Source of the DNA: Bacteroidales bacterium 45-6
GTDB taxonomy: Bacteria > Bacteroidota > Bacteroidia > Bacteroidales > Dysgonomonadaceae
Direction of reading: 5' to 3'
NCBI GenBank assembly: GCA_001897035.1
Contig: MKRS01000210.1
Span: forward strand, 1 to 26,084
DNA length: 26,084 bases
Positions within the stretch are counted from its first letter, which is position 1. Each line of letters begins with the position of its first letter. Shown here piece by piece: positions 1,476 through 25,800 of this stretch. The notes beneath the pieces were generated by a model. It was not told the origin of the DNA, searched no databases, and was given only the letters and a program-made list of their open reading frames with translations. Position numbers and translations under genes: made by a program.

Positions 1476-1483
1476 AAATAAAA

Positions 1484-7490: not shown

Positions 7491-7544
7491 TTAAATTAAT
7501 TTTGCTGCGCTCAAAAAGAAATTCAAAACAAAACAAATATTATT

Positions 7545-8045: not shown

Positions 8046-8067
8046 TTCGACAACAAAATAAGGAAGA

Positions 8068-8099
8068 GGATGGTAATTGAATTTTTACCATCCTTTTTT
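8068..8099 (+). terminator. Rho-independent terminator after the ompH pair
   Basis: A 9-bp perfect stem (GGATGGTAA at 8068-8076 with TTACCATCC at 8085-8093) encloses an 8-nt loop and is followed directly by six T residues. Confidence 0.9.
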
Positions 8100-8159
8100 C
8101 TTGCTATGCGTCAGGAGTAAAATATTGATAAAAGATGAATAAACAACCAAAGTTTTCAT

Positions 8160-8167
8160 TACTTTTG
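8160..8167 (+). promoter_or_regulatory. Putative -7 element for the DUF4836 operon
   Basis: TACTTTTG matches TAnnTTTG and lies 45 nt before the DUF4836 start, downstream of the ompH terminator. No clear -33 TTTG is visible at 19-21 bp. Confidence 0.45.
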
Positions 8168-8212
8168 TTTCTTGACGTATTAACTTAATAATGATCCACA
8201 AAAGCTGTTACT

Positions 8213-9892: not shown

Positions 9893-9894
9893 AA

Positions 9895-10536
9895 ATGAAC
9901 AAAATAGTGCTATCAAATTCCAGGCCGGGGGTTTTCTTCGATCTGGAATTGCATTCTGATGTCTGGGACAAACAACTGACATTTGAAAAAGGAAAATCGT
10001 ATTTGATCGAAGCTGAATCGGGAACCGGAAAGAGTTCTCTTTTCAGCTTTATCTACGGCTACCGGAGCGATTTCTTAGGCAATATCTACTTTGACGAAAG
10101 AAGCGTCAACGACATTCCTTTCAAAGAATGGGACGAGATACGGAAAACCAAACTAAGCCTCCTGTTCCAGGAATTGAGGCTTTTCCCTGAATTGACCGCT
10201 TTCGAGAATATCGAGTTGAAAAACCAGTTGACCCAACACAAGTCTCACAAAGAAATAGAGGAGATGCTCCAACTGCTGGGCATCGGCGACAAGCGGAACA
10301 CGCCCTGCGCCAAATTGTCCTGGGGACAACAGCAGCGGGTGGCCATCATCCGGGCATTGTGCCAGCCTTACCAGTTCTTATTGTTCGACGAACCGATAAG
10401 CCACTTGGACGATAAAAACGCCGCCATCATCGCCGATCTGGTGGAAAAAGAAGCCAAAGCACAGAATGCGGGCATCATCGTCTCTTCCATCGGCAAACAG
10501 TTACCCCTACCCTATCATCAACGTTTTGCCCTATGA
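9895..10536 (+). CDS. ABC transporter ATP-binding protein, divergent
   Basis: This 213-aa ABC ATPase has a Walker A-like AESGTGKSS at 40-48 (the usual first Gly is Ala40), a Q-loop Gln at 92, the signature LSWGQQQR at 141-148 and Walker B FLLFDEP at 161-167 followed by the D-loop SHLDD. The switch (H-loop) histidine expected about 30 residues later is missing: the strand reads IIVSSIGKQ. The N-terminus is short and the A-loop region is not typical. It resembles the LolD/FtsE/MacB type that pairs with FtsX-like permeases. Its stop overlaps the permease start by 4 nt (ATGA), so translation is probably coupled. Hydrolysis may be slow or use another residue; this is inference. Confidence 0.88.
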   Translation: MNKIVLSNSRPGVFFDLELHSDVWDKQLTFEKGKSYLIEAESGTGKSSLFSFIYGYRSDFLGNIYFDERSVNDIPFKEWDEIRKTKLSLLFQELRLFPELTAFENIELKNQLTQHKSHKEIEEMLQLLGIGDKRNTPCAKLSWGQQQRVAIIRALCQPYQFLLFDEPISHLDDKNAAIIADLVEKEAKAQNAGIIVSSIGKQLPLPYHQRFAL

Positions 10537-11696
10537 AACTGGTCTGGAAACTATTAAAACAAAATATAAGCAAGACCCAGATGGCGGGGTTCTTCATCGC
10601 CAATCTGGTGGGGCTCTCCATCGTGCTGATTGCCCTTCAATTCTTCTTCGACGTGAATCCCTTTTTCTCGCAAAAGGACACCTTGTTCAAGCGGGATTTC
10701 TTTGTCATCACCAAGAAAGTGGGAATCATCGGCAACACAGGCTTTTCGCCAAAAGAAATTGATGAGATAAAACACGCCCGCTTTGTGAAGGAGCTGGGAC
10801 AATTCACCTCCTCCCAATTCAGTGTTTTCGGAGGCATCTCGCAGCAAGGGGGACAAAGTTTCAGGACGGAGATGTTCTTTGAATCGGTGCCCGACAACTT
10901 CATCGACGTGAAATCCAAAGACTGGAAGTTCTCTCCTTCCGACTCGTCGATCCCGATCATTATCCCCAAAAACTACTTGGACTTGTACAACTTCGGCTTT
11001 GCCGAAGCCCGATCCATGCCGAAAATATCGGAAGGCCTGGCAAGCTTGGTGGGGATGGACATCACCCTGATGGGCAACAACAACACCCAACAGTACCGGG
11101 GAAGCATTGCCGGGTTCTCGAACCGCATCAACACCATCCTCGTCCCCGAGAGCTTCATGACTTGGGCCAACGAACGCTACGGTAACAAGAAAAATGCGAA
11201 TCCCGCACGGCTGATATTGGAAGTGAGCAACATTGCCGATCCCCAAATCGCCACCTTCTTCAAGAGCAGAGGCTACGAAGTGGAAGGCGAAAACCAAGCC
11301 GTGGGCCGAATGGCCTTCTTCATGCGGCTGATCGTCGGCATTGTGGCCGGTGTGGGAGTGCTGATCTGCGCCTTGTCGTTCACGATCCTAATCTTGAGCA
11401 TCTACTTGTTGCTCCAAAAGAATATGCAGAAACTCCAGAACCTGCGCCTGATGGGGTATTCGAAGTCCGCAGTTTCGCGTTCGTATGAAATACTGTCTGT
11501 GGGCATCAACTTCGTGGTACTGATCGGCTCAATCGCCATCGCAGCCATCCTCCGGAACTATTATGTGGACACCATCAAAACCGTCTGGAGCGATTTCGAG
11601 CAAACAAGCATCCTGCGTGTAAGCCTGATCGGGATTGCCATCTTCGCCTTCCTGTCGGTGGTGAACGTGGTAATTATCCGAAGGAAAATAAAATAG
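10533..11696 (+). CDS. FtsX-like ABC transporter permease
   Basis: This 387-aa inner-membrane protein has the FtsX/MacB-type topology: one membrane segment near residues 19-39, a large extracytoplasmic domain of about 220 residues, and three further segments near 265-290, 320-340 and 363-383. The cytoplasmic loop after the second segment contains LQNLRLMGYSKSAVSRSYE, which matches the coupling-helix region of this family. It overlaps the ATPase gene by 4 nt and closes the DUF4836 operon. Its substrate is unknown; FtsX-like permeases act in lipoprotein export, cell-wall hydrolase control or mechanotransmission. A strong hairpin follows within 20 bp. Confidence 0.85.
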   Translation: MKLVWKLLKQNISKTQMAGFFIANLVGLSIVLIALQFFFDVNPFFSQKDTLFKRDFFVITKKVGIIGNTGFSPKEIDEIKHARFVKELGQFTSSQFSVFGGISQQGGQSFRTEMFFESVPDNFIDVKSKDWKFSPSDSSIPIIIPKNYLDLYNFGFAEARSMPKISEGLASLVGMDITLMGNNNTQQYRGSIAGFSNRINTILVPESFMTWANERYGNKKNANPARLILEVSNIADPQIATFFKSRGYEVEGENQAVGRMAFFMRLIVGIVAGVGVLICALSFTILILSIYLLLQKNMQKLQNLRLMGYSKSAVSRSYEILSVGINFVVLIGSIAIAAILRNYYVDTIKTVWSDFEQTSILRVSLIGIAIFAFLSVVNVVIIRRKIK

Positions 11697-11711
11697 CCTT
11701 TTCTTGAAAAA

Positions 11712-11760
11712 AATAGCAAAGCAGAAATTCCTCCCCCGTAGGAATTTCTGCTTTGCTATT
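11712..11760. terminator. Very strong bidirectional hairpin terminator
   Basis: A perfect 20-bp inverted repeat (11712-11731 with 11741-11760) has a 9-nt loop. An A-run lies just before it (seven A residues ending at 11713) and TTT just after, so it can stop transcription from either side. Confidence 0.8.
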
Positions 11761-11835
11761 TGGCGGAGGAAAAGATCAAGTGACAGATAATGGAATTTTC
11801 CGCCGGAACTTTCAGATTTTTCAATCCAAATCATT

Positions 11836-11843
11836 TATCTTTG
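11836..11843 (+). promoter_or_regulatory. Putative -7 element for the AI-2E family gene
   Basis: TATCTTTG matches TAnnTTTG and lies 73 nt before the start of the AI-2E permease gene, after the strong terminator. The -33 region is weak. Confidence 0.45.
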
Positions 11844-11916
11844 ACACCACAAGGAAAACTTGGATCCGGGTCGTTTCCTGAATTCAACTTTATTCAACTA
11901 ATTACCTATTGGTTAA

Positions 11917-13050
11917 ATGAATACGGACAAGATACCTTTCATTGTGCGGTTGCCGTTAGTGCTGGTCAGCATCCTTGCCATCGGCTACCTTCTGTCCATC
12001 GGGCAAATCATTTTGGCCCCGCTCACATTCGCCATGTTCACAGCAATCATGTTTCTCCCGCTTGCCAGCTTTCTGGAGAAGAAGCTGCACCTGTCGCGGG
12101 TTTGGTCCACGATGGTCTCCGTTTTGCTGCTCATCCTTGTCCTGTCGGCGATATGCTATTTCTTCGCCTACCAGCTAAGCGACTTGGTCAACGACTGGCC
12201 CAAGCTGCAAAAACAGATCGAGATCGTCTTCCACCGGGTTCAAATCTGGTTTTTCCACAGTTTCAACCTGAATCTGGACGAACAAATGCAATACCTGAAG
12301 CAAGGTGCCGAGAAATTGGCATCGACCAGCGGACTGATTATTGGGGGAACGATAAGCATATTCTCGTCGAGTGTGTTTTTCTTTTTCCTGAGCATCATTT
12401 TTTTCATGGCCGTGCTCAACTACCGCCGCATCCTGTACAAATTCATCACGAATGTGTTCACCCAAAGGCACATCGGCAAGGTGGAAGAGATTGTCTCTGA
12501 AATTCAGATCATGGTGAAGCACTATTTAGTCGGCCTCGTTACCCAAATCATCATTGTCTTCCTCCTTGTGTCGGCGTTCTTAACCGTCATGGGGGTGAAA
12601 TATGCCATCCTGTTAGGGGCAATCACCGGATTCCTGAATGTGATTCCCTATATCGGGATCAGCATATCGGCCATCATCACCTTGTTGATTTCCTTCGCAA
12701 CCGGCAGCTCGTCCAGCGCACTGATGATCGTGCTGGGTTTTCTGGCCACCCATTCCATCGACGCCAACATCACGCTACCCTTCGTGATCGGCTCGAAGGT
12801 GAAAATAAACGCCCTGTTCTCCTTTCTCGCCATCCTTGCGGGTGAAGCCCTTTGGGGAATATCGGGAATGTTCCTGTGCATCCCGGTACTGGGAGTCTTG
12901 AAAATCATTTTCGACCGGGTGGAAGACCTCCAACCTTGGGGATTGCTGATTGGGGACGACGACGTGCATCGTCATCGCCGAAAACAAAAGAAAAGCAAGA
13001 AAGTGCTTACAGAAACAGAACCGGAGGAAACAGAAGGTCAAGGGCAATAA
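11917..13050 (+). CDS. AI-2E family transporter (PerM/YdiK type)
   Basis: This 377-aa integral membrane protein has hydrophobic segments at about 10-60 (two), 68-90, 145-180 and several from 205 to 325. This is the usual layout of the AI-2E/UPF0118 family with about eight membrane segments and a soluble stretch after the third. The family hallmark near residues 228-250 is seen (LLGAITGFLNVIPYIG). Members export or exchange various small molecules, and some act as Na+/H+ antiporters; the substrate here cannot be told. The C-terminal tail from about residue 345 is highly charged (His/Arg/Lys then Glu) and likely cytoplasmic. The gene is single, with its own promoter. Confidence 0.9.
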   Translation: MNTDKIPFIVRLPLVLVSILAIGYLLSIGQIILAPLTFAMFTAIMFLPLASFLEKKLHLSRVWSTMVSVLLLILVLSAICYFFAYQLSDLVNDWPKLQKQIEIVFHRVQIWFFHSFNLNLDEQMQYLKQGAEKLASTSGLIIGGTISIFSSSVFFFFLSIIFFMAVLNYRRILYKFITNVFTQRHIGKVEEIVSEIQIMVKHYLVGLVTQIIIVFLLVSAFLTVMGVKYAILLGAITGFLNVIPYIGISISAIITLLISFATGSSSSALMIVLGFLATHSIDANITLPFVIGSKVKINALFSFLAILAGEALWGISGMFLCIPVLGVLKIIFDRVEDLQPWGLLIGDDDVHRHRRKQKKSKKVLTETEPEETEGQGQ

Positions 13051-13067
13051 ACGACGATTCGGATGGA

Positions 13068-13298
13068 ATATATCAAGAATTGAATGCAATATATGCAAAT
13101 GCAAGTGCGATATACGCAAATTCACATCGATGAAATGTTAATCAAACTTGGATATATGCAAATGAATTGTGAATATACACAAATACAAGTGCGATATATG
13201 CAAATACGAATTCAATAGATACAAATGCGGATCGAATATATACAAACGTACTAAGCTGAAATGCAAATGAAGCAGGCGTATATAAGCACCAAGTAGTA
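13068..13298. repeat. 21-bp-period tandem repeat array
   Basis: About eleven units start at 13068, 13089, 13110, 13131, 13152, 13173, 13194, 13215, 13236, 13257 and 13278, exactly 21 bp apart. The conserved core is ATATATGCAAAT or close variants; the other 9 bp are variable, and the units at 13131, 13257 and 13278 are degenerate. The array fills most of the non-coding 13051-13368 stretch between the AI-2E gene and the shared terminator. Any ORF across it shows a 7-residue repeat, which is a product of the period and not evidence of coding. Confidence 0.9.
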
Positions 13299-13368
13299 AT
13301 AATCATGAAATCAGATGGAATTTGCAGCCGCAAACGCGATGCTATTGGCTTGGGAGATACATACAATC

Positions 13369-13408
13369 AAAGTGCGGAATCATTACCTGATTCCGCACTT
13401 TATTTTTG
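13369..13408. terminator. Bidirectional terminator
   Basis: A 14-bp perfect stem (13369-13382 with 13388-13401) has a 5-nt loop and is followed by ATTTTTGG on the plus strand. It lies downstream of both the AI-2E gene and the convergent truncated gene. Confidence 0.85.
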
Positions 13409-13424
13409 GAAGACAGGCCGAACG

Positions 13425-14150
13425 CTATTTGATGGCAATTTTGGAAATCTGCTTGTAGTTCGGATGTGTACTACCAAACAAAGACCTGACATAGGACTTG
13501 ACGTTGGACGCCGTTTCAACGATACTCGTTTCGGCGCCTCGAATAATCTCCGTTCGCTTGTTTCGAGCAGCAGTAAGCTGCACGAAGGAAGAAGCAACCC
13601 TGGTATTTTTGTCTTGTAGCTCGGCAGCCAAGCTGGCCAAGGCACTCACTTTGAGTTCCTCCTCGTTGGGATTGTATGCCGGAATAGAAGAAAGCAACGA
13701 TATAAGACTCTGTAAATTGTCTATCCGGTTGCTGTAACTCATTTGGGAAACGGAAATTTGATTCACCTTTTTGCCTTCGGCCTCCATAGCTGCCTTCTCC
13801 TCATTGGTAATCTTGGTGGATGCACGTTGCCCCTTTAGTTTGCGGAAGATGGTTTGAGCAGTTTGATCGTTTTCGGCTGTGCTGTCTGATGCCTGAAGGG
13901 CGTATTTGACACGGGTAAGAAGCTGCCCAATAGCATTGAAGGCATCCTTTTGAGCATCCACGTTGGTGGAATAGGAGGAATTGGCAGCAGCATACTCGGC
14001 AAGTGCCTCTTTAGCTTGTGCAAGCAAGGCCTCCATGGCGGGAATCTTGATGCTTTCTTTGACAGGGTTGTAAGCCGATCCAAAGGAACGGATTATGATG
14101 AGTAAACTCTCAAAGTTGGCTATGTGTTCTTTGGCATAAAAAAGCGGGTA
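13425..14150 (-). pseudogene. 5'-truncated gene for a conserved helical protein
   Basis: From the first in-frame ATG (complement of 14034-14036) the product is 203 aa, Ala/Lys/Glu/Ser-rich and helical, ending SHPN-like HPNYKQISKIAIK. The same frame stays protein-like for 38 codons upstream of that ATG (including YAKEHIANFESLLIIIR and SAYNPVKESIKIPAM) until a stop at 14151-14153, with no start codon between. The true N-terminus therefore seems lost. I recall this as a Bacteroidota protein family without known function, sometimes in several copies. The break coincides with the start of AT-rich accessory DNA, so the gene was probably cut when the island arrived. Internal initiation at the ATG is possible but would remove conserved residues. 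Confidence 0.7.
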
Positions 14151-14153
14151 CTA

Positions 14154-14508
14154 TAACCTATGTTGTGAAAATTAGTCCTCAAACATGAAATATTTTTAAT
14201 AAAAATAGGGTTTGGTGGGGAGAAATGGATATATTTGCGAAATGAGGGGAAAGAAAAAGTTTTCAGTTACACGAAAGGATTGACTCCGTCAATATTCAAT
14301 TCGTGCTGCTGCTGAAAGCAAGGTATTGGATGGTTGCAAATAATAGTAGAACATTCGTAAATGGAATAAAATGTAAATCATTGTTTCTATTTTATACTTA
14401 TAAAAATCAATATGTTACCAACAATAAATACAAAATAGGCAAATCCGTTTACGAATGTTATAAGTTTCATATTTACGAATGTTGAATATGTACTTCGTAA
14501 ATTAGACG
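14154..14508. other. Non-coding left flank of the cassette array with dyad repeats
   Basis: No convincing gene lies here. It holds a TATATTTG (-7-like) at 14230-14237 pointing towards the cassettes, and copies of a 12-nt motif: AACATTCGTAAA at 14350-14361, its exact reverse complement TTTACGAATGTT at 14448-14459, and again at 14472-14483. A 9-bp inverted repeat (14471-14479 with 14494-14502) ends 5 nt before the first cassette boundary. This spacing resembles the L'/R' layout of an attC site, or the integrase sites of an attI. No AAC-type R'' box was found at the expected place, so the identity is open. Confidence 0.5.
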
Positions 14509-14559
14509 TTATATGCAAGCCTAAAAATGCCGAGCACTAACCATAATAAACAAAATTAG

Positions 14560-15480
14560 ATGCCCATAACAGAAACAGAAATAGAGAAATTAATTAGTTG
14601 CACAAAGATGTTCATGAACCATGTTCATTTTGTCCAGCAATCCTTTAATCTGCTTCCTGACAACAAGCATTATGGCACTTGCATAAACTATGTTGACTTA
14701 CAAGAGTATCGCGATGAATTTTGTAATGAATTAGTAAACACAATATCAGAGTGGGTTTATAGCCAAAAAAAAGCAGCGGAAGTAATTGACATAATGATAG
14801 GTGAAGGGAGAAGTTTTCAAAATGCACAAAACACCCTGACGACAGAAGCATTTAAAAAATTTAGAAACCATTCAACCGACAAATTATTAGTTCAAGGACA
14901 GTTTGGCGAATTGCTTTTATTCAATTTTCTGCAAAGTTTTTTCAAGAGTGTTCCTTTGCTTCGAAAGATGCCAATCACAACTTCTGTTGAGATGGAAAGA
15001 TTTGGTGCAGATGCAATTCATTACAATTACAGTGGGGGGAAAAATCTTTTCTATTTAGGCGAAGCGAAAACTTATAGTAGCAAATACAAATTTGATACAG
15101 CAATTGAAGATGCTATTGGAAGCATTTTAAAAACTTACAAAGAGCATCGTAAAGAGCTTGGTAGATATGTTTACGATTCTTTCATTGATGATGCCTTGAT
15201 TGAAGTTGCAAAAGATTATAAAAACGGAACTCTAAAAGATGTTGAACTTCATTTAGTTTCAGTTATAACTTATTGCGAAAATAAAAAGATTGAAAAGAAA
15301 AGCGAAAATCAAATCAAAGAGGATATTATTAAAATCATTGAAGAACGAGGGAAAGCCGTTGATAGAAAACTTTTTGATTCAATTGATAAAGGTTTGCATC
15401 CACGATTCAATTACATAATCCTACCAGTTTGGGAATTGGATTTGCTACTTGAACAATTTAAAAAACTAATTGGCAAATAA
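14560..15480 (+). CDS. hamA: Hachiman anti-phage defence protein HamA (DUF1837 nuclease)
   Basis: HamA is the DUF1837 effector of the Hachiman system, a PD-(D/E)XK-like nuclease held in check by the helicase HamB until phage DNA damage is sensed. The 306-aa protein shows the nuclease core GADAIHYN (Asp151) followed by YLGEAKTY (Glu168, Lys170), the D...ExK pattern. An upstream Glu117 lies in GQFGELLLF, on the helix before the core. The start at 14560 lies 51 nt inside the cassette. hamB follows with a 1-nt overlap (TAATG), so the two are translated together. Codons are much more AT-rich than in the core genes on either side. The E. coli AbpAB pair is a related system; a restriction-like role other than Hachiman is less likely given the partner. 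Confidence 0.87.
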   Translation: MPITETEIEKLISCTKMFMNHVHFVQQSFNLLPDNKHYGTCINYVDLQEYRDEFCNELVNTISEWVYSQKKAAEVIDIMIGEGRSFQNAQNTLTTEAFKKFRNHSTDKLLVQGQFGELLLFNFLQSFFKSVPLLRKMPITTSVEMERFGADAIHYNYSGGKNLFYLGEAKTYSSKYKFDTAIEDAIGSILKTYKEHRKELGRYVYDSFIDDALIEVAKDYKNGTLKDVELHLVSVITYCENKKIEKKSENQIKEDIIKIIEERGKAVDRKLFDSIDKGLHPRFNYIILPVWELDLLLEQFKKLIGK

Positions 15481-17999
15481 TGGAAGCAAAAGAAATTCTC
15501 ACAAAGTTGCTCCATTTAGAACTTGTTACAAATGCGAGCAGGTTAAAATTCATTAATGGAAATTCAGATGAACAAATTGAAGAGGAATTTTTAACCGAAG
15601 CAATTTCTGTTTTGAATGATTTGTCGGTAAAGACAGATGAAGTTTCAAAGAAGCAACTAATTGCAATTTGCGCCTTGCTTTGGACTTATAGAAAAAAGGA
15701 ATGGGATGGGCTTAAAAATTATCTGATTCTGTTTCTTTCAAGAGCGGGTTTTGGCCCATCATCAATCATGATTGATTCGGAATATTCTTTTTCCGACAAA
15801 CAGTTTTCGTTTAGCGAAAATCTACTGAATCAATTTGCCGTTACCGTTGCACAAGTAAAAAACGAAATAAAAGTTGGTAACTCAATCTTTCTGTTGAGTG
15901 ATTTTCAGAAGGACATTTGGGAAGCCATAGAGAAAAATACTTTAACCGGAATTTCAGCTCCAACCTCGGCAGGAAAATCTTTTCTAATTCTGCTGAAAGC
16001 TATAGACCTAATCCAGAAGAAAGGCGGAACAGTTGTTTATGTAGTGCCTACTTTGAGCTTGGTTTCACAAGTTACCAGTGATTTCAGAAAACTACTTGAC
16101 GATTTTCAACTTGCAGACTACACCCTTGAAACGACTTATAATAATACTTCAGCTACTCAGAACTCTATTTATATTTTGACGCAAGAAAAAGCCATTGCCG
16201 CTTTTTCACAGTCTGAAAATCCATTTGAAAATGTTCGCTTATTGGTGATTGATGAGATTCAAAATGTTGAGAAAGTTGCAGATTCTGACGACCAGCGTTC
16301 TAAGGTTCTGTATGACTTAATGATTGAACTTAGAAACAGTTCACAGATAGACCACATCATTATCTCGGGTCCAAGAATTATCAAAATAGATGAATTAGGC
16401 GAAAATGTTTTCGGTCTAAATTCAGAGAAGAAAGAAACAGATGCTTCACCAGTTCTAAACTTAACTTACTCTATATCAAAGAAAAAGGAAGATTACTATT
16501 TCAATGTTTATTCTGATTTATTGGAAAAACATTTACAAGTAAAAATTACAAACAAAGATTCTATTCAAGGTTACGGGAAGGTTCAGTATAATGATAACTA
16601 CCTTGAGTATTTAAGTGGCTTTCTAGATGGTTTTGACAAGGATGAAAGCACTTTAATATTTTCTCCTACTTCCACCACTTGTAATAAAATGGCTTCTCAC
16701 ATTTCAAAAAACATGATAGAGAAGAATGATAAATTCTTAAATGAATTAGCTGGGTTCATATCTGCGACAGTGCACCCAATGTTTACAATGGTTGAAACAA
16801 TCCAAAAGGGAGTTGCTTACCATCATGGAAAATTACCGTTTCATGTAAGAGTATTGATTGAGGACGGGATAAGAAAGAAAAACATCAAAACAATTATTTG
16901 TACAACAACTCTTCTTCAGGGAGTAAATTTACCTGTTCAGAATATTATTATCAGAAACCCTAATTTGTTCATCGCAAAAAAGGAAACCAGTTCCAAACTT
17001 TCGAACTATGAAATTGCAAATCTACGTGGCAGGGCAGGACGACTATTAAAAGATTTTATTGGCAGAACATACATACTTGACGAATTAAGCTTCAAAGAAA
17101 GCGAAACCACTCAGTTGGAATTATTTAAAGATTCTTCCAAAGAACTGCAAGTTGGTTACGGTAAGAAATATCATACGCATAAGGAGAATATAAATAAAGA
17201 CCTTGCAAATAATGTTGGAAGCACAATCGAAAACCAAGACTATTCTTTTCTTACCACATATTTGAGACAAACAGTTTTACGTTACGGACTTTTTTCACAA
17301 ATATATCTTGGAAGAGTTGGTATTATTTTGAGTGATGCTGAAATGAACAGCATTTTTGAATCTTTATCAAAATTGGAAATATCAAAATCTATTTGCGCAA
17401 AGAATAGATACTGGGACCCGATAGATTTGAATAACCTTTATCAAAAAAGAAATCTGTTCCAACTTCCGACTAGTGCAAATGAATTGGGGCTATCATATAA
17501 AATCAAAACCCTACTTCAAGCTATTAAAGTAAACTTTCCAATTTACTACTTCAAATATTTCGGAGTTGAAAATTCATTTAGAAAAGATGGAACTGAAATA
17601 GATAAACTGCTTCAATCTTGCATTCTATCTGAAAATTGGATGAAGGAAAAAACTCTTTCTGAAATCTTCTCTGATAAGTTTTATGACTCCTCGGAAAAAA
17701 TTGATGATGCAATAAGTTTTGTTCAAAATAAAATTTCTTACGGTTTGCCATTGTTATTAAAGCCTTTGTATGACATTAAAGAACCAGACAGCATGTTTAC
17801 TCGATTTATTGAGTTGGGGGCGTACAAACCAATCACAAGAAAACTAATTGAGCTAAGTATCCCAAGAGAAACCGCAATCTTTTTAAGCATTAACTTTGAA
17901 TTCACTAACATTGATAACAAACAGGAACTTATAAATCAATTACGAATAATCAGAAACAATTTATCTTATTGGCACAAAGTTCAATTAAGCACGATATGA
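15480..17999 (+). CDS. hamB: Hachiman anti-phage defence helicase HamB
   Basis: HamB is the Ski2-like superfamily 2 helicase/translocase that patrols DNA and controls HamA. The 839-aa protein has a Q-motif-like LLSDFQKDIWEAI (138-150), Walker A SAPTSAGKS (159-167), motif Ia VVPTLSLVSQV (188-198), a DEIQ Walker B (258-261) and motif III ISGPR (295-299). It also has motif IV TLIFSPTS (391-398), HHGKLP (448-453), motif V TTTLLQGVNLP (475-485) and motif VI NLRGRAGRL (514-522). All helicase motifs look intact. Residues 1-135 form an N-terminal helical domain and 540-839 the C-terminal region typical of HamB. The start overlaps the hamA stop by one base. The attC site of this cassette begins 15 nt after the stop. 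Confidence 0.88.
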   Translation: MEAKEILTKLLHLELVTNASRLKFINGNSDEQIEEEFLTEAISVLNDLSVKTDEVSKKQLIAICALLWTYRKKEWDGLKNYLILFLSRAGFGPSSIMIDSEYSFSDKQFSFSENLLNQFAVTVAQVKNEIKVGNSIFLLSDFQKDIWEAIEKNTLTGISAPTSAGKSFLILLKAIDLIQKKGGTVVYVVPTLSLVSQVTSDFRKLLDDFQLADYTLETTYNNTSATQNSIYILTQEKAIAAFSQSENPFENVRLLVIDEIQNVEKVADSDDQRSKVLYDLMIELRNSSQIDHIIISGPRIIKIDELGENVFGLNSEKKETDASPVLNLTYSISKKKEDYYFNVYSDLLEKHLQVKITNKDSIQGYGKVQYNDNYLEYLSGFLDGFDKDESTLIFSPTSTTCNKMASHISKNMIEKNDKFLNELAGFISATVHPMFTMVETIQKGVAYHHGKLPFHVRVLIEDGIRKKNIKTIICTTTLLQGVNLPVQNIIIRNPNLFIAKKETSSKLSNYEIANLRGRAGRLLKDFIGRTYILDELSFKESETTQLELFKDSSKELQVGYGKKYHTHKENINKDLANNVGSTIENQDYSFLTTYLRQTVLRYGLFSQIYLGRVGIILSDAEMNSIFESLSKLEISKSICAKNRYWDPIDLNNLYQKRNLFQLPTSANELGLSYKIKTLLQAIKVNFPIYYFKYFGVENSFRKDGTEIDKLLQSCILSENWMKEKTLSEIFSDKFYDSSEKIDDAISFVQNKISYGLPLLLKPLYDIKEPDSMFTRFIELGAYKPITRKLIELSIPRETAIFLSINFEFTNIDNKQELINQLRIIRNNLSYWHKVQLSTI

Positions 18000-18013
18000 C
18001 ACAAAAAAGGCCA

Positions 18014-18149
18014 GCATATAACAGCACCTACAAGAAATTGGCGGTTCAGCGGTTACATGAAGCTTTGTGCTTCGTATCAAGTTCAGTGGTGGCAGACAGT
18101 TTTCGTCTCCGAAATCGCCAACTTCTTGTAGCTGCAAACCGTTATGCGG
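18014..18149 (+). other. attC1 recombination site of the hamAB cassette
   Basis: R'' GCATATAAC (18014-18022) and R' GTTATGCGG (18141-18149) bracket a long imperfect dyad. The arm 18028-18043 pairs with 18116-18131 over 16 bp with one mismatch, and a CAGC/GCTG pair continues towards R''. The loop of about 70 nt is variable. Total length (about 136 nt) is in the range of long attC sites. It is more GC-rich than the ORFs beside it. Confidence 0.85.
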
Positions 18150-18193
18150 CATTGTAAGTGCTGCCGTGGAAACATTAACTTACAGACAAAAAA

Positions 18194-18850
18194 ATGACAA
18201 AAACGGACATTGAACCAATTGTAAATAAGTTTAAAAGTCAGTCGAATCCAGACGACCGCTATACATCGTTTGACTATTGCTACAATTACTTTCGTATGAC
18301 AAATGACCTTACCCAAGACATTGAAAAGAGTTGTTTAGTTCTTGGATTTTATTTGGCAAGTTGGGGAATGTTTAGAGGTTCAAGTTTTTTGCTCCAAAAA
18401 AGTGTAAAGCATTTTGAGTCGACAATTTTATACATTGCAACATTAGACAAATCAGTCTGGGATATTGATGTCGATAATTATAACGAGAAAAATATTGACA
18501 CAATTATCGGTATCTATAAAGATATCAAGAAGCTCCTCATTCTCAATGGCAATTCGGACTTGACATTAATAACCAAGATTTTACTTGGGATTTTTGGTTT
18601 CATTCCGGCATTTGACAATTACTTCGGTAATTCATTTCGGGCAATTTATGGTGGACAGTGTGGTTTTAGAAAATTAAATGTAAAATCATTGACTTTCATA
18701 AAGGCATTTTATGATTCAAACAAATCGACAATTGATAGATTATCAATGGAGACATTTACGACCAACTTTACAACTGGACAAAAGACAACGATAAATTATC
18801 CAAAAGCAAAAATTATTGACATGTATGGATTTACCGCAGGACAATATTAA
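18194..18850 (+). CDS. Hypothetical cassette-borne protein
   Basis: This 218-aa protein is of unknown function. It opens with MTKTDIEPIVNKFKSQ and carries FDYCYNYFRM (27-36) and a striking SCLVLGFYLASWGMFRGSS segment (46-64) that I recall from proteins in chromosomal integron cassettes of many phyla. The middle is helical, and a second hydrophobic stretch (ITKILLGIFGFIPAFDNYFG, about 125-145) may pack inside the fold; no signal peptide or clear transmembrane segment is seen. No catalytic motif was recognised. It is alone in cassette 2, starts 52 nt after the cassette boundary and stops 7 nt before its own R'' box. It may belong to a defence or stress function by association, which is only inference. 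Confidence 0.8.
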   Translation: MTKTDIEPIVNKFKSQSNPDDRYTSFDYCYNYFRMTNDLTQDIEKSCLVLGFYLASWGMFRGSSFLLQKSVKHFESTILYIATLDKSVWDIDVDNYNEKNIDTIIGIYKDIKKLLILNGNSDLTLITKILLGIFGFIPAFDNYFGNSFRAIYGGQCGFRKLNVKSLTFIKAFYDSNKSTIDRLSMETFTTNFTTGQKTTINYPKAKIIDMYGFTAGQY

Positions 18851-18857
18851 ACAACGA

Positions 18858-18991
18858 CCGCATAACATCAGCTACCCGGCAAGTGCGGCAGCGGTGGTTT
18901 TCCGTGGGCATCTTTCCGCTCGGGCTGCTTTTCGGCTTGACAGGAAATCGCCCGCAATCCGCCCCTGCGTGTAGCTTCCTACGTTAGCGGT
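18858..18991 (+). other. attC2 recombination site of the hypothetical-protein cassette
   Basis: R'' CCGCATAAC (18858-18866) is the reverse complement of this cassette's own 5' R' box at 18141-18149, and R' GTTAGCGGT (18983-18991) starts the next cassette. Arms AGCTAC (18870-18875) and GTAGCT (18971-18976) pair and continue imperfectly inward through GC-rich sequence, giving a foldable site of about 134 nt. Confidence 0.85.
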
Positions 18992-19072
18992 CAGGCTAAA
19001 GCGACACAACGAAAACAAACAGTTGACAGTTTAGGACAAACCAAGGACAGAAAAAACTGAACAAATTAAATT

Positions 19073-19519
19073 ATGATTATTAGAGAAGCTAAAATTGAAG
19101 ACATAAAACAAATTCAAATTGTAAGAAATTCTGTGACGGAAAATACTTTGTCAAATCCTAACTTGGTGACAGACGAAGATTGTGAAGAATTTATTACCAA
19201 ACGAGGAAAAGGATGGGTTTGCGAAATAGATGCACAAATCGTGGGCTTTGCAATTGCTGACCTAAATGAAAATAACATTTGGGCTTTATTTTTAGACCCA
19301 AAATTTGAGAAAAAAGGTATTGGACAACAGCTACACAATACAATGTTGGACTGGTATTTTACACAGACAAAGGAAAAAGTTTGGTTAGGGACAGCTTTTA
19401 ATACAAGAGCAGAACAGTTTTACAGAAAAGCAGGTTGGACAGAAGTTGGTACACACGGAACAAAGGAAATTAAATTTGAAATGACATATAACGACTGGAT
19501 AACAAGCCCGAACCGCTAA
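19073..19519 (+). CDS. GNAT family N-acetyltransferase
   Basis: This 148-aa cytoplasmic protein has the GNAT fold pattern: an N-terminal strand MIIREAKIEDIKQI, the beta-4 strand IWALFLDPKFEKKGIGQQL with the acetyl-CoA pyrophosphate-binding KKGIG (80-84), and the later strand VWLGTAFNTRAEQFYRKAGWTEVG typical of motif B. It transfers an acetyl group from acetyl-CoA to an unknown amine. It occupies cassette 3; GNAT enzymes are among the most common integron cassette products. Its stop codon (19517-19519) lies inside the R'' box of its attC. The start at 19073 is 89 nt after the cassette boundary. Confidence 0.88.
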   Translation: MIIREAKIEDIKQIQIVRNSVTENTLSNPNLVTDEDCEEFITKRGKGWVCEIDAQIVGFAIADLNENNIWALFLDPKFEKKGIGQQLHNTMLDWYFTQTKEKVWLGTAFNTRAEQFYRKAGWTEVGTHGTKEIKFEMTYNDWITSPNR

Positions 19520-19549
19520 CAGCAGTTTGGCAAAATGGCGGGTTCAGTT
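19512..19549 (+). other. attC3 remnant, right half missing
   Basis: R'' ACCGCTAAC (19512-19520) matches this cassette's own 5' box at 18983-18991. The left arm that follows shares an AATGGCGG-GTTCAG-type segment with attC1 (19533-19547 against 18037-18049). The sequence then runs straight into the repeat element at 19550, and no complementary right arm or R' box was found downstream, so the site is broken. Confidence 0.75.
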
Positions 19550-19742
19550 CCTCCTCCCCCTCGTTTGCAACGAGGGGGAATTGGTGAGACGTTTGCAACG
19601 TAAAGAAAGACATAGCCAAATTGATGACTATAAGAAATCTATCACTAAGATATTTTGAACAGCTTTTGATGCGAGTGGATGGTATATCTTTGTTGTAAAA
19701 ACAAAGGACCAGCAACCCCTCGTTGCAAACGAGGGGTAGGGA
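19550..19742. mobile_element. REPIN/MITE-like element, copy A (complete)
   Basis: The element is bounded by two palindromes in opposite orientation. The left one (19556-19578) has a 10-bp stem CCCCCTCGTT/AACGAGGGGG with loop TGC; the right one (19716-19736) has a 9-bp stem CCCCTCGTT/AACGAGGGG with loop GCA. The 137-bp interior is shared with copy B at 21069-21265 and includes AGAAAGACATAGCCA, TTTTGATGCGAGTGGAT and a small dyad TTTGTTGTAAAAACAAA. It fills most of the 19520-19858 gap between the GNAT gene and the retropepsin gene. It has no gene of its own and is likely moved by the RAYT encoded at 21959. Confidence 0.85.
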
Positions 19743-19858
19743 TGATTTACTGACAGCTCTTTTACGGGTAAATAAATTCGTTAAAACAGGCTATAATACG
19801 TTCTTTGTGTTCTTGAAAATGAAAAGGAATTATTAAACAAACAAAAATCATTACAAAG

Positions 19859-21055
19859 ATGTATACCACAATTAAAAAACTTTTATTTGTCACCTGTTAT
19901 TTCGGTTTAAGTACCGCTGTCATCGCACAATCTAAACTTCCACTAATTAAGGCATCCAATGAGAAGGCCATAATTACAGATGGTGCGAATGTGAAAATTG
20001 AATGGAAACTTGACCCAAAGCTAAAACCCGACACCTATTTTGTAAACATCCCCTTAATAAAAAGCAAAGTAAGCCTTAAAACAGACAAGGATGAAATAAG
20101 CTTTCAAACAAAGCCCGGGAAAAACTATGATTTTATAGTGCTACTTAATGAAATGGATAGTTGTTATGTGAGAATTTCATCTTGTCAACCACCGGCTTCT
20201 GAGATTATGAATTTTGATGGTAAACTTCCAGAGAGCATTCCTTTTTCTATAATAGGCTCTCGTATATATTTTAAAGGAAAGCTCAATGGTAAACTTCTTA
20301 ATATTCAATTGGATTTAGGTGCAGGGACTAACGTTGTAAACAAATTAGTTTCAGATACATTAGGTTTAACATTTTCGCAAAGCACTTTGGTAAGTAATAC
20401 AGAAGGTGTAAATGAGCAGCGGACAAGTATCAATAATGAGCTAAAGTTAGGCGATTTAAGTTGGTCTGGCGTATCAGTAACCGAAGTTGGAAATATGCAG
20501 CCATACGAAGATATGATTATTGGAAATGGACTTTTCAAAAATAAAATCATTGAGGTAGATTATGACAATAAGAGTTTTTCCATCCATGACAAACTACCTT
20601 CAAAAGCAAAAAAGTATTCCAAACAACCTGTTTATTATGAGCAAAACCGACCAAAATTTGAAGCTGAATTTGTTCACAACGGCAAAAAATTTGATTTTTG
20701 GTTTCTTTTTGATACAGGAAGAGATGGAACAATGCTAATCGGTGAAGATTATACAGCTTTAAACAATAACTGGATAGAACTAAACCCATTGATGACTATT
20801 AAAGGACGTAAAATTGTTCGTCTTGATGCTATAATTGCCGGTCAAAAATTTAGTGATATTGTCACAAATGCGGCTGACCCGTCAAACCCTCAAGGCAGAC
20901 CAACATTGTTCGGAAACCAAATATTAAGTCATTTTAACATAATACTGGATAACAGAAGTGGAATCATCTATTTAAAAGCTAACAGCCGCACAAATGAACC
21001 CTATTCCGATTATAAAGGATACCTTAAAGAAGTTTCCAAAATGCAAAAAAAATAA
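19859..21055 (+). CDS. Secreted retropepsin-like aspartyl protease family protein
   Basis: This 398-aa protein has a signal peptide (MYTTIKKLLF to about VIAQ) and so acts in the periplasm or outside the cell. Two aspartyl-protease half-domains are seen. The first active-site-like loop, QLDLGAGTNVV (Asp152), has Leu-Gly where Thr/Ser-Gly is normal; the second, FLFDTGRDGTML (Asp285), is canonical DTG. Each is followed by a strand ending in a GNGLF/GNQILSHF-type segment (222-226 and near 350), as in bacterial retropepsin-like families. The N-terminal 120 residues are beta-rich and unassigned. The gene lies between repeat copies A and B, with no cassette boundary recognised. Confidence 0.8.
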   Translation: MYTTIKKLLFVTCYFGLSTAVIAQSKLPLIKASNEKAIITDGANVKIEWKLDPKLKPDTYFVNIPLIKSKVSLKTDKDEISFQTKPGKNYDFIVLLNEMDSCYVRISSCQPPASEIMNFDGKLPESIPFSIIGSRIYFKGKLNGKLLNIQLDLGAGTNVVNKLVSDTLGLTFSQSTLVSNTEGVNEQRTSINNELKLGDLSWSGVSVTEVGNMQPYEDMIIGNGLFKNKIIEVDYDNKSFSIHDKLPSKAKKYSKQPVYYEQNRPKFEAEFVHNGKKFDFWFLFDTGRDGTMLIGEDYTALNNNWIELNPLMTIKGRKIVRLDAIIAGQKFSDIVTNAADPSNPQGRPTLFGNQILSHFNIILDNRSGIIYLKANSRTNEPYSDYKGYLKEVSKMQKK

Positions 21056-21068
21056 ACACAGCAGGTAA

Positions 21069-21265
21069 CCTCCTCCCCCTCGTTTGTAACGAGGAGGAAT
21101 TGGTAAGACGCTTGCAACGTAAAGAAAGACATAGCCAGATTGATGACTATGAAAAATCTATCACTAAGATATTTTCAACAGCTTTTGATGCGAGTGGATG
21201 TTATATAGTGCTTTGTTGTAAAAACAAACAACCAGCACCCCCTCGTTGCAAACGAGGGGCAGGGA
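21069..21265. mobile_element. REPIN/MITE-like element, copy B (complete)
   Basis: It has the same organisation and interior as copy A. The left palindrome (21075-21097) has drifted, with loop TGT and one mismatch in the right arm (GAGGAGG). The right palindrome (21239-21259) is perfect. It starts 13 bp after the retropepsin stop and ends about 40 bp before the DinB-like gene. The open frame at 21100-21306 is carried by the repeat and is not a likely gene. Confidence 0.85.
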
Positions 21266-21307
21266 GAGTGAAAAAACAAAAGATTACACTTAAAATTATA
21301 ACTTGAT

Positions 21308-21772
21308 ATGGATTTTTCAAACATTACAAATGGAATCTCAAAAGTGATTGAGACTTGGGAACCGAAATTTGCAGGCTTGCCGATTGGCACCATCACGCAA
21401 AAAAGGAATAAGCAAAACCGAACGATAAAACAAATACTTGGTCACTTGATAGATTCCGCTTCAAACAACCACCAGCGTATGATACGGTTACAATACAATT
21501 CTGACTTGGTATTCCCTGACTACCGGCAAGATAACGACTTGTGGATTGCTCTTCAAGATTTTCAAAACGAAGATTGGCATGATTTGATTCAATTATGGAA
21601 GTATTTCAACCTACACATGATTCAAGTCATTAAATCGGTTGACGAGTCTAATCTTGACAATTACTGGCATGACTTTGAAGGAACAAAAGTTACCTTGCAG
21701 CAGATGATTGAAGGCTATCTTTGGCATATCGACTTGCATTTGAATGAAATACAAGAACTGATTGATAAATAA
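21308..21772 (+). CDS. DinB-like family protein
   Basis: This 154-aa four-helix-bundle protein belongs to the DinB/YfiT-type superfamily of metal-binding proteins, some of which are thiol-dependent transferases. The metal triad can be placed at His46 (in QILGHLIDSASNNHQ), His140 and His144 (LWHIDLHLNEI). The segment NNHQRMIRLQ and the spacing of helices fit the family. It is cytoplasmic, with no signal peptide. It sits alone between two palindrome-ended repeats with AT-rich codons like the rest of the island. The substrate is unknown. Confidence 0.8.
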   Translation: MDFSNITNGISKVIETWEPKFAGLPIGTITQKRNKQNRTIKQILGHLIDSASNNHQRMIRLQYNSDLVFPDYRQDNDLWIALQDFQNEDWHDLIQLWKYFNLHMIQVIKSVDESNLDNYWHDFEGTKVTLQQMIEGYLWHIDLHLNEIQELIDK

Positions 21773-21792
21773 CGTAAGAAAACTGGAAAAGG

Positions 21793-22576
21793 CCTCCTCA
21801 CCCTCGTTTGCAAAGAATAGAATTGGAAAAGTGTTTATAATGCAAAAAAGAATAAATGCTATATATTTGTAAAAGCTAAAAAATAAATATAAACGTTTTT
21901 CCTCATTCGCCTTGGAGGAGATGGCAAGTCGTTTCCAACGAAAAAAACACAAACAAATATGTCTTCAGAAAACTACAGAATTGAAAAGCAAAATGCGGTT
22001 TACTTTCTCACGTTTACGGTAACTGATTGGGTGGATGTTTTTACAAGATTGAATTATCGAAATATTATTTCGGAATCATTGGATTATTGCCGAAAGCATA
22101 AGGGGTTGAAACTGTATGCGTGGTGCTTAATGACCAATCACATCCATTTGGTTTGCAGCATTGAATCTCCTTTTAGAATGACTGACTTTCTTCGTGATTA
22201 TAAAAAATTTACGGCAAAGAAGATACTCAACGACATACAGCATTTGCCCGAAAGCAGGAGAGACTGGATGTTGTACAGGTTTGAATTTGCCGGCAAGTTT
22301 GATAACCGTATCCAGAAATACCGGTTTTGGCAAGACAAAAGTCATCCTGTTGAATTGTCAACAACGGAGATGATTGAGCAACGCATCAACTATATTCACG
22401 AAAATCCTGTGAAAACGGGATTGGTTGCCTCTGCCGAAGATTACTTATATAGTTCGGCACGGAATTATGCAGGTCTTGACAGCGTCATTGAAATTGATCT
22501 GATTTAGAGGTTGGGGAAATAATTATTGTTGTAAACAAGAAACCAGCAACCCCTCGTTACAAACGAGGGGGAGTGA
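21793..22576 (+). mobile_element. RAYT-carrying element with the same ends as the REPIN/MITE copies
   Basis: The left end (from 21793) keeps the CCTCCTC-CCCTCGTTTGCAA half of the palindrome and the AATTGG that follows it in the MITE, although the second arm is decayed. The right end has TTGTTGTAAACAA, ACCAGCAA and a complete palindrome (22550-22570) matching the right end of copies A and B. Between them lies the transposase gene. A second decayed left-end-like stretch is seen at 21900-21955. The shared ends suggest that this is the gene-carrying relative of the non-coding copies. Confidence 0.7.
21959..22507 (+). CDS. REP-associated tyrosine transposase (Y1_Tnp / IS200-like HUH enzyme)
   Basis: RAYTs are single-strand DNA transposases that act on REP palindromes. 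The 182-aa protein has the HUH metal-binding motif as MTNHIHLV (His61, His63) on the central strand. It also has an INYIHENPVKTG segment whose Tyr145 aligns with the catalytic tyrosine of the E. coli enzyme (DYIYINP), and YRFWQDKSHP upstream. The end segment DYLYSSARNYAG is also typical. All catalytic residues appear present, so it could be active. The start at 21959 is preceded by a decayed REP left end; a full REP palindrome follows 43 bp after the stop. Its association with several palindromes in 3 kb supports the RAYT rather than the plain IS200 call. Confidence 0.9.
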   Translation: MSSENYRIEKQNAVYFLTFTVTDWVDVFTRLNYRNIISESLDYCRKHKGLKLYAWCLMTNHIHLVCSIESPFRMTDFLRDYKKFTAKKILNDIQHLPESRRDWMLYRFEFAGKFDNRIQKYRFWQDKSHPVELSTTEMIEQRINYIHENPVKTGLVASAEDYLYSSARNYAGLDSVIEIDLI

Positions 22577-22582
22577 GGATAA

Positions 22583-22691
22583 TCTTTCACTAAGATATTT
22601 TGACCAGCTTTTGATGCGAGTGGATCTGATATAGTACTTTGTTGTAAAAACAAAGAACCACTAACCCCTCGTTGCAAACGAGGGGTAGGGA
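22583..22691. mobile_element. REPIN/MITE-like element, right half only (copy E)
   Basis: This matches copies A and B from the CACTAAGATATTTT segment in mid-element through TTTTGATGCGAGTGGAT and the small dyad to the right palindrome (22665-22685). The left half is absent. Confidence 0.8.
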
Positions 22692-22710
22692 GTGAATAGT
22701 ACTCTATGTC

Positions 22711-22793
22711 CTCCCCCTCGTTTGCAACGAGGGGGGAATGGTGAAACGTTTGCAACGTAAAGAAAGACATAGCCAAATTGATGACTATAAAAA
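22711..22793. mobile_element. REPIN/MITE-like element, left half only (copy F)
   Basis: It has a perfect left palindrome (22713-22735), then the interior as far as TTGATGACTATAA, where it stops a few bases before the creD stop codon at 22798. The break point is close to the one at which copy E begins, so E and F together hold one complete element in permuted order. Confidence 0.8.
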
Positions 22794-22797
22794 ACCC

Positions 22798-24114
22798 CTA
22801 CTCTTCAGCGGCTTGGCTTCTATGTTTGTACCACTCAATTTTTCGGGAAAAATACATGATGGCGGCCAATATGCAGAAGAGTCCCAAGCTGCCAATGAGC
22901 AGGGCGGTGTCTTCGAGTTGCAAGATCACGTAGAGAAAGGTGTAGAGTCCGCAAAGCATGGCGCACAGCGAGAGCGACTGCCTCTTATCCTTGAAAATAC
23001 TTTGCACATAGACCGTGATGAGTCCAATTGTAGCCGTGCTGGCAATGAGGTAGGCCGCCCCAAAGTTGATTTGCTCGGAGATTGACAACAGCAGGGTGTA
23101 GAAGATTATCAGGGCGATGCCCACCAGCAGGTACTGGATAGGATGGATGCGTTTTCCGGTGAGAATCTCGATGAAGAAAAACACGACGAAAGTGAGCAAG
23201 ATGAACATGATGGCGTATTTAGCGGAACGCATGTTTTGCTGGTATTGATCGACTGTGTCCACCAGATCGACGCCAAAGGACGATTGGTTGGGATTGCTGA
23301 ATTCGTTGTCCGACCAATAATCGGGGATCGGGCGATTGAAGCTCAGCACGTTCCACGATGCCTTGAATCCGTTTTGGTCAATTTTATATTCCGGGGTGAA
23401 ATTTCCGGTGAATCCGGGCGACTTCCACGCTCCGCTCACCTCCACGGTGGTGGTTTTGCCAACAGGGATAAAGTTGATGTCGCTGCTCCCTTTCAATTTC
23501 AACTGATAATCAAAAGCTATGGGTTTCTGAAGTGCGGAATCTTGCAATCCGGTCAGGTCGATTTCCAAACCGTCTTCCTGCTGGTTTTTGGAGCTCGCTT
23601 TGGCACTGTATTTTGTTCCACCCAACACAAACTCCCGGTTCTCGCCAATTCCCCTCAGATCGGTGATTCCCAACGAAATGTAAGCTCCGCGCATATCCAG
23701 GGTCATCCCTTTGGTGTCCAATTCTTTGGGGAAGGAAAAACTCCCGGAGAAACGCGTGTCGCTTTTGTACAAGATAGACTTGTAGATCCCATAGTGCCGC
23801 TCTTCGGGAAACAGCTTCGTGGTGATTTTCAGTCTGTCGGGGGCGATCCTCAACACGCGCTTCTTGATCTTCACCGTGCTTCCTTCCGTCGTTTCAGTTG
23901 TGTATGGGATGTTCAGGATGGGTCCGTTCAATGTCTGCGGACTGCTCCACTTGTCATTGATCTTGCGGATAGCTTCTTTGCTTGTCTGCTGTCGTTCGCC
24001 GATCAAGCGTTGAATCATAACGCTCGGGATCAGCAACATGAGGGTCATAAAGGCAATAATGATCGCCCTGAAAGTGAGAGATTGCGTGAATTTTTCTTCC
24101 GAATTTGTTTTCAT
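22798..24114 (-). CDS. creD: CreD-like inner-membrane protein
   Basis: CreD family proteins are inner-membrane proteins linked to envelope stress; in E. coli creD belongs to the CreBC regulon, and it affects colicin and beta-lactam phenotypes. The 438-aa product has one N-terminal membrane segment (about 17-36, FRAIIIAFMTLMLLIPSVMI), a large periplasmic beta-rich domain, and about six membrane segments from residue 305 on. Typical segments include GERQQTSKEAI after the first membrane span and LTGKRIHPIQYLLVG before the third. The start at 24112-24114 (MKTNSEEK) is preferred over an ATG 21 codons upstream. It is the last gene of the 25076-22798 operon. Its stop codon marks the right border of the island. 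Confidence 0.9.
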   Translation of the reverse strand: MKTNSEEKFTQSLTFRAIIIAFMTLMLLIPSVMIQRLIGERQQTSKEAIRKINDKWSSPQTLNGPILNIPYTTETTEGSTVKIKKRVLRIAPDRLKITTKLFPEERHYGIYKSILYKSDTRFSGSFSFPKELDTKGMTLDMRGAYISLGITDLRGIGENREFVLGGTKYSAKASSKNQQEDGLEIDLTGLQDSALQKPIAFDYQLKLKGSSDINFIPVGKTTTVEVSGAWKSPGFTGNFTPEYKIDQNGFKASWNVLSFNRPIPDYWSDNEFSNPNQSSFGVDLVDTVDQYQQNMRSAKYAIMFILLTFVVFFFIEILTGKRIHPIQYLLVGIALIIFYTLLLSISEQINFGAAYLIASTATIGLITVYVQSIFKDKRQSLSLCAMLCGLYTFLYVILQLEDTALLIGSLGLFCILAAIMYFSRKIEWYKHRSQAAEE

Positions 24115-24183
24115 ACTGATTTCAATTTTACTGATGATGTATTTAAAAGAACTTTGAATTACAAAGTAAAGCTTCAAAAAAAA

Positions 24184-24471
24184 TTATCTAATCAATTTTT
24201 CAAGGGCATCGAGATGCTCCTGAAAGCTTTTACGGCCGAGATCGGTAAGCGAATATTTTGTGTTGGGTTTTCTTCCGATAAATTGCTTGGACGAAAGGAT
24301 GTATTGACTCGATTCCAAGGCTTTTAAATGACTCGCAAGGTTGCCATCGGTGACACCAAGCAGCTCTTTCATCGTGTTGAAATCCGCCGAATCGTTGACC
24401 GACAAAATAGACATGATCCCCAAGCGGATACGGCTATCAAAGGCTTTATTCAGGTTAGCTATAATGCTCAT
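24184..24471 (-). CDS. Winged-helix transcriptional regulator
   Basis: This 95-aa protein is a single winged-helix DNA-binding domain of the ArsR/MarR-like HTH type. IRLGIMSILSVNDSADFNTMKELLGVTDGNLASHLKALE covers helices 1-3, with the recognition helix at DGNLASHLKALE, and GRKPNTKYSLTDLGRKSFQEHL forms the wing and last helix. It has no sensor domain and no cysteine pair for metal sensing. Its start overlaps the stop of the upstream membrane-protein gene by 4 nt, and creD follows after about 70 bp. It probably regulates its own operon; the signal is unknown. This trio is a common arrangement in Bacteroidota as I recall it. Confidence 0.88.
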   Translation of the reverse strand: MSIIANLNKAFDSRIRLGIMSILSVNDSADFNTMKELLGVTDGNLASHLKALESSQYILSSKQFIGRKPNTKYSLTDLGRKSFQEHLDALEKLIR

Positions 24472-25785: not shown

Positions 25786-25800
25786 CAGCACCCACAGCAT

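Follow-up and report, generated by a model that had tools for sequence, protein, structure and literature searches.

A two-gene Hachiman cassette at an attI site of Bacteroidales bacterium 45-6, and a proposed integron variant with a patchless integrase in Bacteroidota

Canonical integrons, such as those of class 1 and of Vibrio cholerae, hold a tyrosine recombinase gene (IntI) beside an attI site, cassettes cut at G^TT and attC hairpins with R'' and R' boxes. They can also carry defence cargo, which an excerpt of a review treats as established for Vibrio while also citing Kieffer 2025 on mobile integrons (PMC12409362). Software and researchers alike identify their integrases by a patch that holds the extrahelical bases of the attC hairpin. 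Here we describe a locus with the same anatomy for which both the patch and these bases are missing. It lies on contig C210 of Bacteroidales bacterium 45-6, which was analysed over its entire 26,084 nt (the window; the assembly has 3.8 Mb in 899 contigs and is 85% complete), and it carries a Hachiman defence operon, hamAB, in one cassette. Comparisons were made with 101 genomes of the family, 393 of the order (for HamA), 395 of the phylum sample (for HamB) and 395 of the Bacteroidia (for the integrase). We consider it very probable that the cassette sits at the attI of a Bacteroidota integron variant that uses a patchless integrase.

The locus differs from the canonical platform in that no integrase gene stands beside this attI, whereas one is present at other attI loci. 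Further differences are an integrase without the patch, attCs with a G-T mispair and without extrahelical bases, and several integrase-less attI copies per genome. With two model-found attCs and no integrase in the window, the locus resembles a cluster of attC sites lacking an integron integrase (CALIN); its conserved attI makes it, in our view, a platform with a docking site and not an orphan array. The cargo is like known Hachiman systems in both genes, their order and their motifs. The recombinases share fold length and the best NCBIfam match (NF040815) with Xer/XerA-type and patch-less 'integron-like' recombinases, but in the present genomes their gene is linked to attI and to arrays of attCs. 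In the open literature, a scope without preprints and most subscription papers, no title or abstract described either a Hachiman cassette or patchless integrons. As far as these searches show, the novelty lies in the two-gene Hachiman cassettes and above all in the patchless platform.

The Hachiman cassette and its docking site

Cassette 1 (14509..18141, + strand, 3,633 bp) comprises the Hachiman operon and attC1. At its left edge stands GTTATATGC (14508-14516), whose exact reverse complement GCATATAAC, identical in 9 of 9 bases, forms the R'' box of attC1 at 18014-18022, as a preliminary description made from the sequence alone had stated. That description had also proposed a complete Hachiman pair with intact nuclease and helicase motifs, and both proteins indeed match Hachiman profiles across their full length. 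The product of hamA (14560..15480, +) is a DUF1837 nuclease-like protein of 306 aa (PF08878, 7.9e-33; PADLOC PDLC00157, 5.5e-112) with D151 and GEAK at 167, which we take to be the D...ExK nuclease motif. That of hamB (15480..17999, +) is a DEAD-box helicase of 839 aa (PF00270, 1.4e-18; PADLOC PDLC00177, 2e-291) with APTSAGKS at 160, DEIQ at 258 and NLRGRAGR at 514, presumably helicase motifs I, II and VI. The two genes overlap by one base; hamA starts 51 bp past the left boundary and hamB ends 15 bp ahead of R''.

This hamAB is accessory, acquired DNA. As had been expected, the operon is not always present in relatives: HamA (E<=1e-30) was found in this genome only among the 393 of the order, and HamB (E<=1e-80) in two of the 395 genomes of the phylum sample, this one and G546, with 83% identity. 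HamB had no match in plasmids at E<=1e-60. A protein collection holds 1,236 relatives of HamA at E<=1e-20, the nearest among the best 120 of these being 92% identical. As a Hachiman system the operon is an ordinary member of its family, and only its vehicle, one two-gene cassette, is unusual. In G546 (locus L114, reverse-complement 5462-14891) hamAB is embedded in a type I restriction operon with an attC on either side, and the nearest cassette boundaries around it do not close.

The left boundary of cassette 1 proved to be an attI-like site (14350..14508, +) with the crossover after G14508, a feature absent from the preliminary description. It contains the repeats AACATTCGTAAA at 14350, TTTACGAATGTT at 14448 and 14472, and TTCGTAAA at 14494. 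A query of 172 bases (14350-14521) gave 57 matches at E<=1e-4 in 34 of the 101 family genomes, one of which (G028) matches outside the core only. The matches end at query position 160-163, that is at G^TT, in 38 cases and elsewhere in 4; another 15, window included, extend to 169-172 because several cassettes start alike (..GCAAGC). The left edge of cassette 1 is thus set independently of its attC, since attI homology stops there in other genomes. GC content is 46% in the left flank (1-14121) and 34-37% in the cassettes. A 77% identical copy of attI lies on contig C508 of this genome beside an integrase remnant. A third attI of this genome (L037, contig C898) has an ORC-CDC6-like ATPase gene as cargo; this contig may be chimeric, because it ends in a putative Ras-type GTPase reading frame.

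In a second genome of the genus, G094, other genes begin at the same base of the orthologous attI, as an alternative cassette at this position should. The two genomes are about 80% identical over window positions 4487-14125, 91.5% over 14122-14510 and 96% in attI. Directly past the crossover G094 carries genes for a UvrD-like helicase (PF00580, 2.4e-26) and DarT (PF14487, 7.7e-17), with an ADP-ribosylglycohydrolase gene (PF03747, 2.8e-40) as the third. Similarity returns in repeats resembling repetitive extragenic palindromes (REP-like repeats) from window 19550 and in a transposase region (21927-22576). The left edge is precise, whereas the right edge and right flank are rearranged at the repeats; a base-by-base comparison of the right edge is impossible because both arrays run into them. 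The end of the G094 insert gave no convincing match to our attC model (best E 1.6). Another genome of the genus, G095, matches just part of the flank (63%), and no empty site could be demonstrated there. Judged from these alignments, one docking site holds different multi-gene, defence-like cargo in two species.

attC hairpins, cassette closure and the array end

For the attC covariance model we gathered 17 training attCs by walking from attI sites at ten loci, all in genomes other than the present one; they were chosen partly for their boundary match. Their bottom strands share a consensus hairpin of 17 pairs, 15 of them with compensatory changes. Applied to the window at E<=10, this held-out model returned attC1 and attC2 and nothing else. 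attC1 (18014..18149, - strand; R'' 18014-18022, R' 18141-18149), with its bottom strand modelled, contains the G-T mispair and scored 99.8 bits (E 1.3e-22), a score that upholds the earlier view of a single integron-type cassette with an attC at its 3' end. attC2 (18858..18991, -) scored 40.5 bits (E 2.2e-8). Seven sites were found at E<=0.1 across the whole genome, on six contigs, and there was no match at E<=1 in 30 control loci (218 kb of other recombinases' loci and unrelated stretches). Rfam at gathering thresholds had no match in the window.

We then considered 77 attCs outside the training set, whose alignment is fitted to the model and so leans towards it, and of which related members are not independent. 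Standard pairs fill 93.0% of their stem cells (shuffles: 54.0%), and their covariation scores 0.865 (shuffles: 0.196). One nearly invariant stem pair is G-T in 70 of the 77, and in 15 of the 17 training sites; on the top strand this bottom-strand pair is an A-C mismatch. Predicted stability is higher for the bottom strand in 64 of these hairpins and for the top strand in 12, with one tie. Extrahelical bases are described as a feature of canonical attCs in an extract of PMC2727003. Here only 1-2 of 77 sites have a base in the insert columns of the R''-L'' arm, and because these columns are nearly always empty the attCs lack the canonical extrahelical bases.

A cassette should agree at its left edge with the R'' of its own attC. 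Such closure was assessed by comparing six variable boundary bases with the R'' of the downstream attC, against 20,000 permutations. A model-found attC lies downstream of 21 of 29 attI sites, and 15 of these 21 pairs, window included, match in full (permutations: mean 0.91, maximum 6). Successive attC pairs match in 12 of 21 cases (mean 0.76, maximum 5). The attI pairs that use training attCs match in 8 of 9 cases and those without them in 7 of 12, again including the window. The closed cassettes span 732-4212 bp, and 4 of 20 have at least 3 kb. Cassette 1, called unusually large in the preliminary description, is indeed large at 3.6 kb but not exceptional in this integron class. In L075, L076, L081 and L088 a GTTGAACTAA start stands right after attI or attC, marking an element inserted exactly at G^TT; it encodes a different 283-aa tyrosine recombinase and a second gene that is, we assume, IS91-like.

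The array extends beyond what had been described, with a second complete and a truncated third cassette. Cassette 2 (18142..18983, +, 842 bp), delimited by boundary closure, contains a 218-aa open reading frame (ORF; 18194-18850) with no Pfam and no PADLOC match. Cassette 3 (18984..19549, +) encodes a GNAT acetyltransferase (19073-19519; Acetyltransf_1, 5.4e-14) and retains only the left half of its attC, with R'' ACCGCTAAC at 19512-19520; since the attC model misses this half site, the cassette is assigned from the 9-nt boundary match read from the sequence. The array ends in the REP-like repeats (19550..22844), within which lies an IS200-like (Y1) transposase gene (21959-22507; PF01797, 2.6e-8). 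Such repeats start 30-40 bp past an R''-like box at the array end both in the window (19512-19550) and in L067 (around 5831). The attC model recognises neither half site, and REP-like elements perhaps insert into attC hairpins. To the left of attI, a degenerate run of atatgcaaat-type repeats (13060-13270) separates an AI-2E transporter gene from an ORF (13425-14036) without a Pfam match.

The integrase beside attI, its spread and its cargo

The window contains no integrase gene, a point to add to the preliminary description, and no TIGR02249 match was found on this contig. Among 19 attI loci searched (L068-L086), six have an intact tyrosine recombinase gene of 280-288 aa upstream and divergent of attI. 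Compared with the frameshifted C508 copy, these proteins show 64-71% identity over its N-terminal piece and 69-74% over its C-terminal piece. From integrase start to crossover the distance is 171-186 bp in these loci and 193 bp in Bacteroides neonati, and 12 of the 18 full-length close integrases of the family (E<=1e-130) have an attI match at most 200 bp away. Three single-contig genomes with one such integrase each hold more than one attI match (four in G049, three each in G050 and G053), at distances from the integrase of up to about 1 Mb, which suggests action in trans. Many attI genomes are without a close integrase, including G094 (99% complete). A XerD-like gene on C335 was rejected as an integron integrase, as it looks like an ordinary XerD and no attC was found on C335. 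An AlphaFold2 model of the integrase built from six sequences (pLDDT 63.7, pTM 0.38) was not used.

Alignment indicates that the integrases of this platform are without the IntI patch. Against three of them, TIGR02249 matches in two stretches at 227-231 bits, under its cut-off of 265, whereas NF040815 ('tyrosine recombinase/integron integrase') reaches 236-238 bits, over its cut-off of 220. The alignment to 2A3V breaks off at chain residue 179 and restarts at 244, leaving 180-243 unmatched. This gap covers K209, Y210, W219, P232, H240 and H241, the residues reported to contact extrahelical bases in the crystal structure (PMC3053210, in extract). The first catalytic arginine and the HxxR motif are 89-90 residues apart in 39 of 40 relatives, one not being measurable owing to a stop. 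The patch and the extrahelical bases that it binds are lost together. Because the patch was looked for and not found, we do not file the platform under the IntI integrons.

An integrase profile at E<=1e-75 matched 80 of the 395 Bacteroidia genomes, in 50 of 197 genera. We inspected 40 integrase loci with up to 7 kb per side: a single locus from each of the 38 other genomes that scored best, and those of G605 and G1008. At least one attC (E<=0.05) was present at 21 of the 40, 50 attCs in total; where at least 1.5 kb of contig lay downstream, attCs occurred on that side in 19 of 29 loci. All 50 are consistently oriented: 47 lie downstream and co-directional with the integrase, and 3 upstream and divergent. 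A FastTree phylogeny places every divergent array (Dysgonomonadaceae, B. neonati, L156 and a Flagellimonas plasmid) in one clade (support 0.906) and every downstream array in another (0.987); both clades also include loci where no attC was seen. On two plasmids, of Chryseobacterium (L115) and Flagellimonas (L116), integrases 42-47% identical to the patchless type have four and two attCs nearby, respectively; the two attCs of L116 enclose a dihydrofolate-reductase-family gene, with erm(F) situated between these sites and the integrase. Many Acinetobacter plasmids encode a recombinase that shares 47.7% identity with residues 65-280 of the patchless integrase.

Other arrays carry defence genes as well. 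Bacteroides neonati MS4 (NZ_HG726027.1, L092) has an intact patchless integrase, an attI and, as cassette 1, a different Hachiman (3,270 bp; HamA PDLC00150, 3.1e-128; HamB PDLC00180, 1.3e-224), followed by a 4,212-bp cassette 2 with TmtA (PDLC03972, E 0). The first array-strand ORF at 26 attI sites, not randomly sampled, was compared with PADLOC at E<=1e-30, giving gene-level matches rather than system calls. Nine sites were positive (the window, L092, L067, two of L077, L079, the second of L073, L068 and L093), 14 had no match and one (L037) weak matches only; the remaining two, L076 and the first L073 site, were outside the scan.

Proposed mechanism, alternatives and significance

The analysis shows the anatomy and boundaries of the cassette, different cargo at the orthologous attI and an association of patchless integrases with attCs; the anatomy by which the platform would work like an integron is well supported. 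The cassette would have been inserted at G^TT of an attI without its own integrase, most likely by a patchless tyrosine recombinase that recombines attC, as a folded bottom strand, with double-stranded attI. This enzyme would act in cis on an attI next to its gene and in trans on attI copies dispersed elsewhere. The conserved G-T mispair probably helps to mark the attC strand that is used, and thereby strand polarity. Docked beside attI and expressed, hamAB would act as an ordinary Hachiman.

Several observations weigh against this account. No attC was seen at 19 of the 40 integrase loci; the downstream contig is shorter than 1.5 kb in ten of these and longer in nine. Stem pairs with double changes are not above shuffles in the 77 held-out attCs (16 compared with 15.8), although the remaining measures of covariation are. 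Six of 21 attI pairs and nine of 21 attC pairs fail to close, three of the six attI failures (L075, L076, L088) starting with one and the same inserted element. The right edge of the array is eroded by repeats, and the model gives no convincing match to the truncated third attC (best E 0.08). Window positions 22800-26084 find no match in a 20-kb stretch of G094, so synteny is lost right of the repeats and the right side is more widely rearranged. Finally, the integrase remnant of this genome, beside the attI on C508, is frameshifted.

That frameshift also fits an old integron that keeps its attI and cassettes although movement has ceased, as do the absence of an integrase from the locus, the truncated last attC and the lack of any hit of the integrase profile in G094 and G095 (E<=1e-60). 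We regard such a dead relic as possible, though clearly the less likely state of affairs, given that G094 has different cargo at an attI still 96% identical and that hamAB is intact with near relatives far away (HamA 92% identical; HamB 83% in G546). These last observations argue for recent exchange in the genus, not for present activity in this strain.

It is improbable that a canonical, patch-bearing IntI, encoded elsewhere or only transiently present, inserted a genuine cassette, the locus being an ordinary CALIN and the patchless recombinases Xer-like bystanders. In favour of this explanation are the lack of an integrase in the window, the frequency of CALINs and their ability to be served in trans, both according to an extract of PMC9668308, and a report in the portion of PMC8138268 consulted that the patch is essential. 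It sits poorly with patchless genes that adjoin attI, with the consistent orientation of all 50 attCs near 21 such loci, with control loci of other recombinases that have no attC, and with attCs that lack the extrahelical bases the patch binds. TIGR02249 at E<=1e-40 matched nothing in the 101 family genomes, but a control search was silent too, so this result is weak and our own account is the poorer for it. Delivery of hamAB by a transposon or other island, with boundary repeats arising by chance, has an IS200-like transposase and repeats nearby in its favour but is already refuted in practice by the held-out attC score, the closure permutations and a left edge that coincides exactly with the attI crossover.

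We therefore return to a hamAB cassette at the attI of an integron variant with a patchless integrase. With somewhat less assurance, we think it likely that this variant represents a second kind of integron, spread across many Bacteroidota families and missed by patch-based tools. It would combine a patchless integrase, a G-T mispair for extrahelical bases and several attI sites per integrase, and would serve, among other uses, to take up complete defence operons (Hachiman in two cases, Avs4, DRT, OLD, DarT-type and restriction systems). An excerpt of the IntegronFinder 2.0 paper reports one complete integron only in Bacteroidetes proper, that of Salinibacter ruber M1 (PMC9024848), and a patchless platform could explain why no more than this one was found. 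The occurrence of attI, attC and exact boundaries without a patch makes testable the long-standing question of how an integrase chooses one hairpin strand, and whether it needs a patch to do so. For the bacteria themselves, the platform is a concrete means by which entire defence operons, Hachiman being one, could pass from cell to cell.

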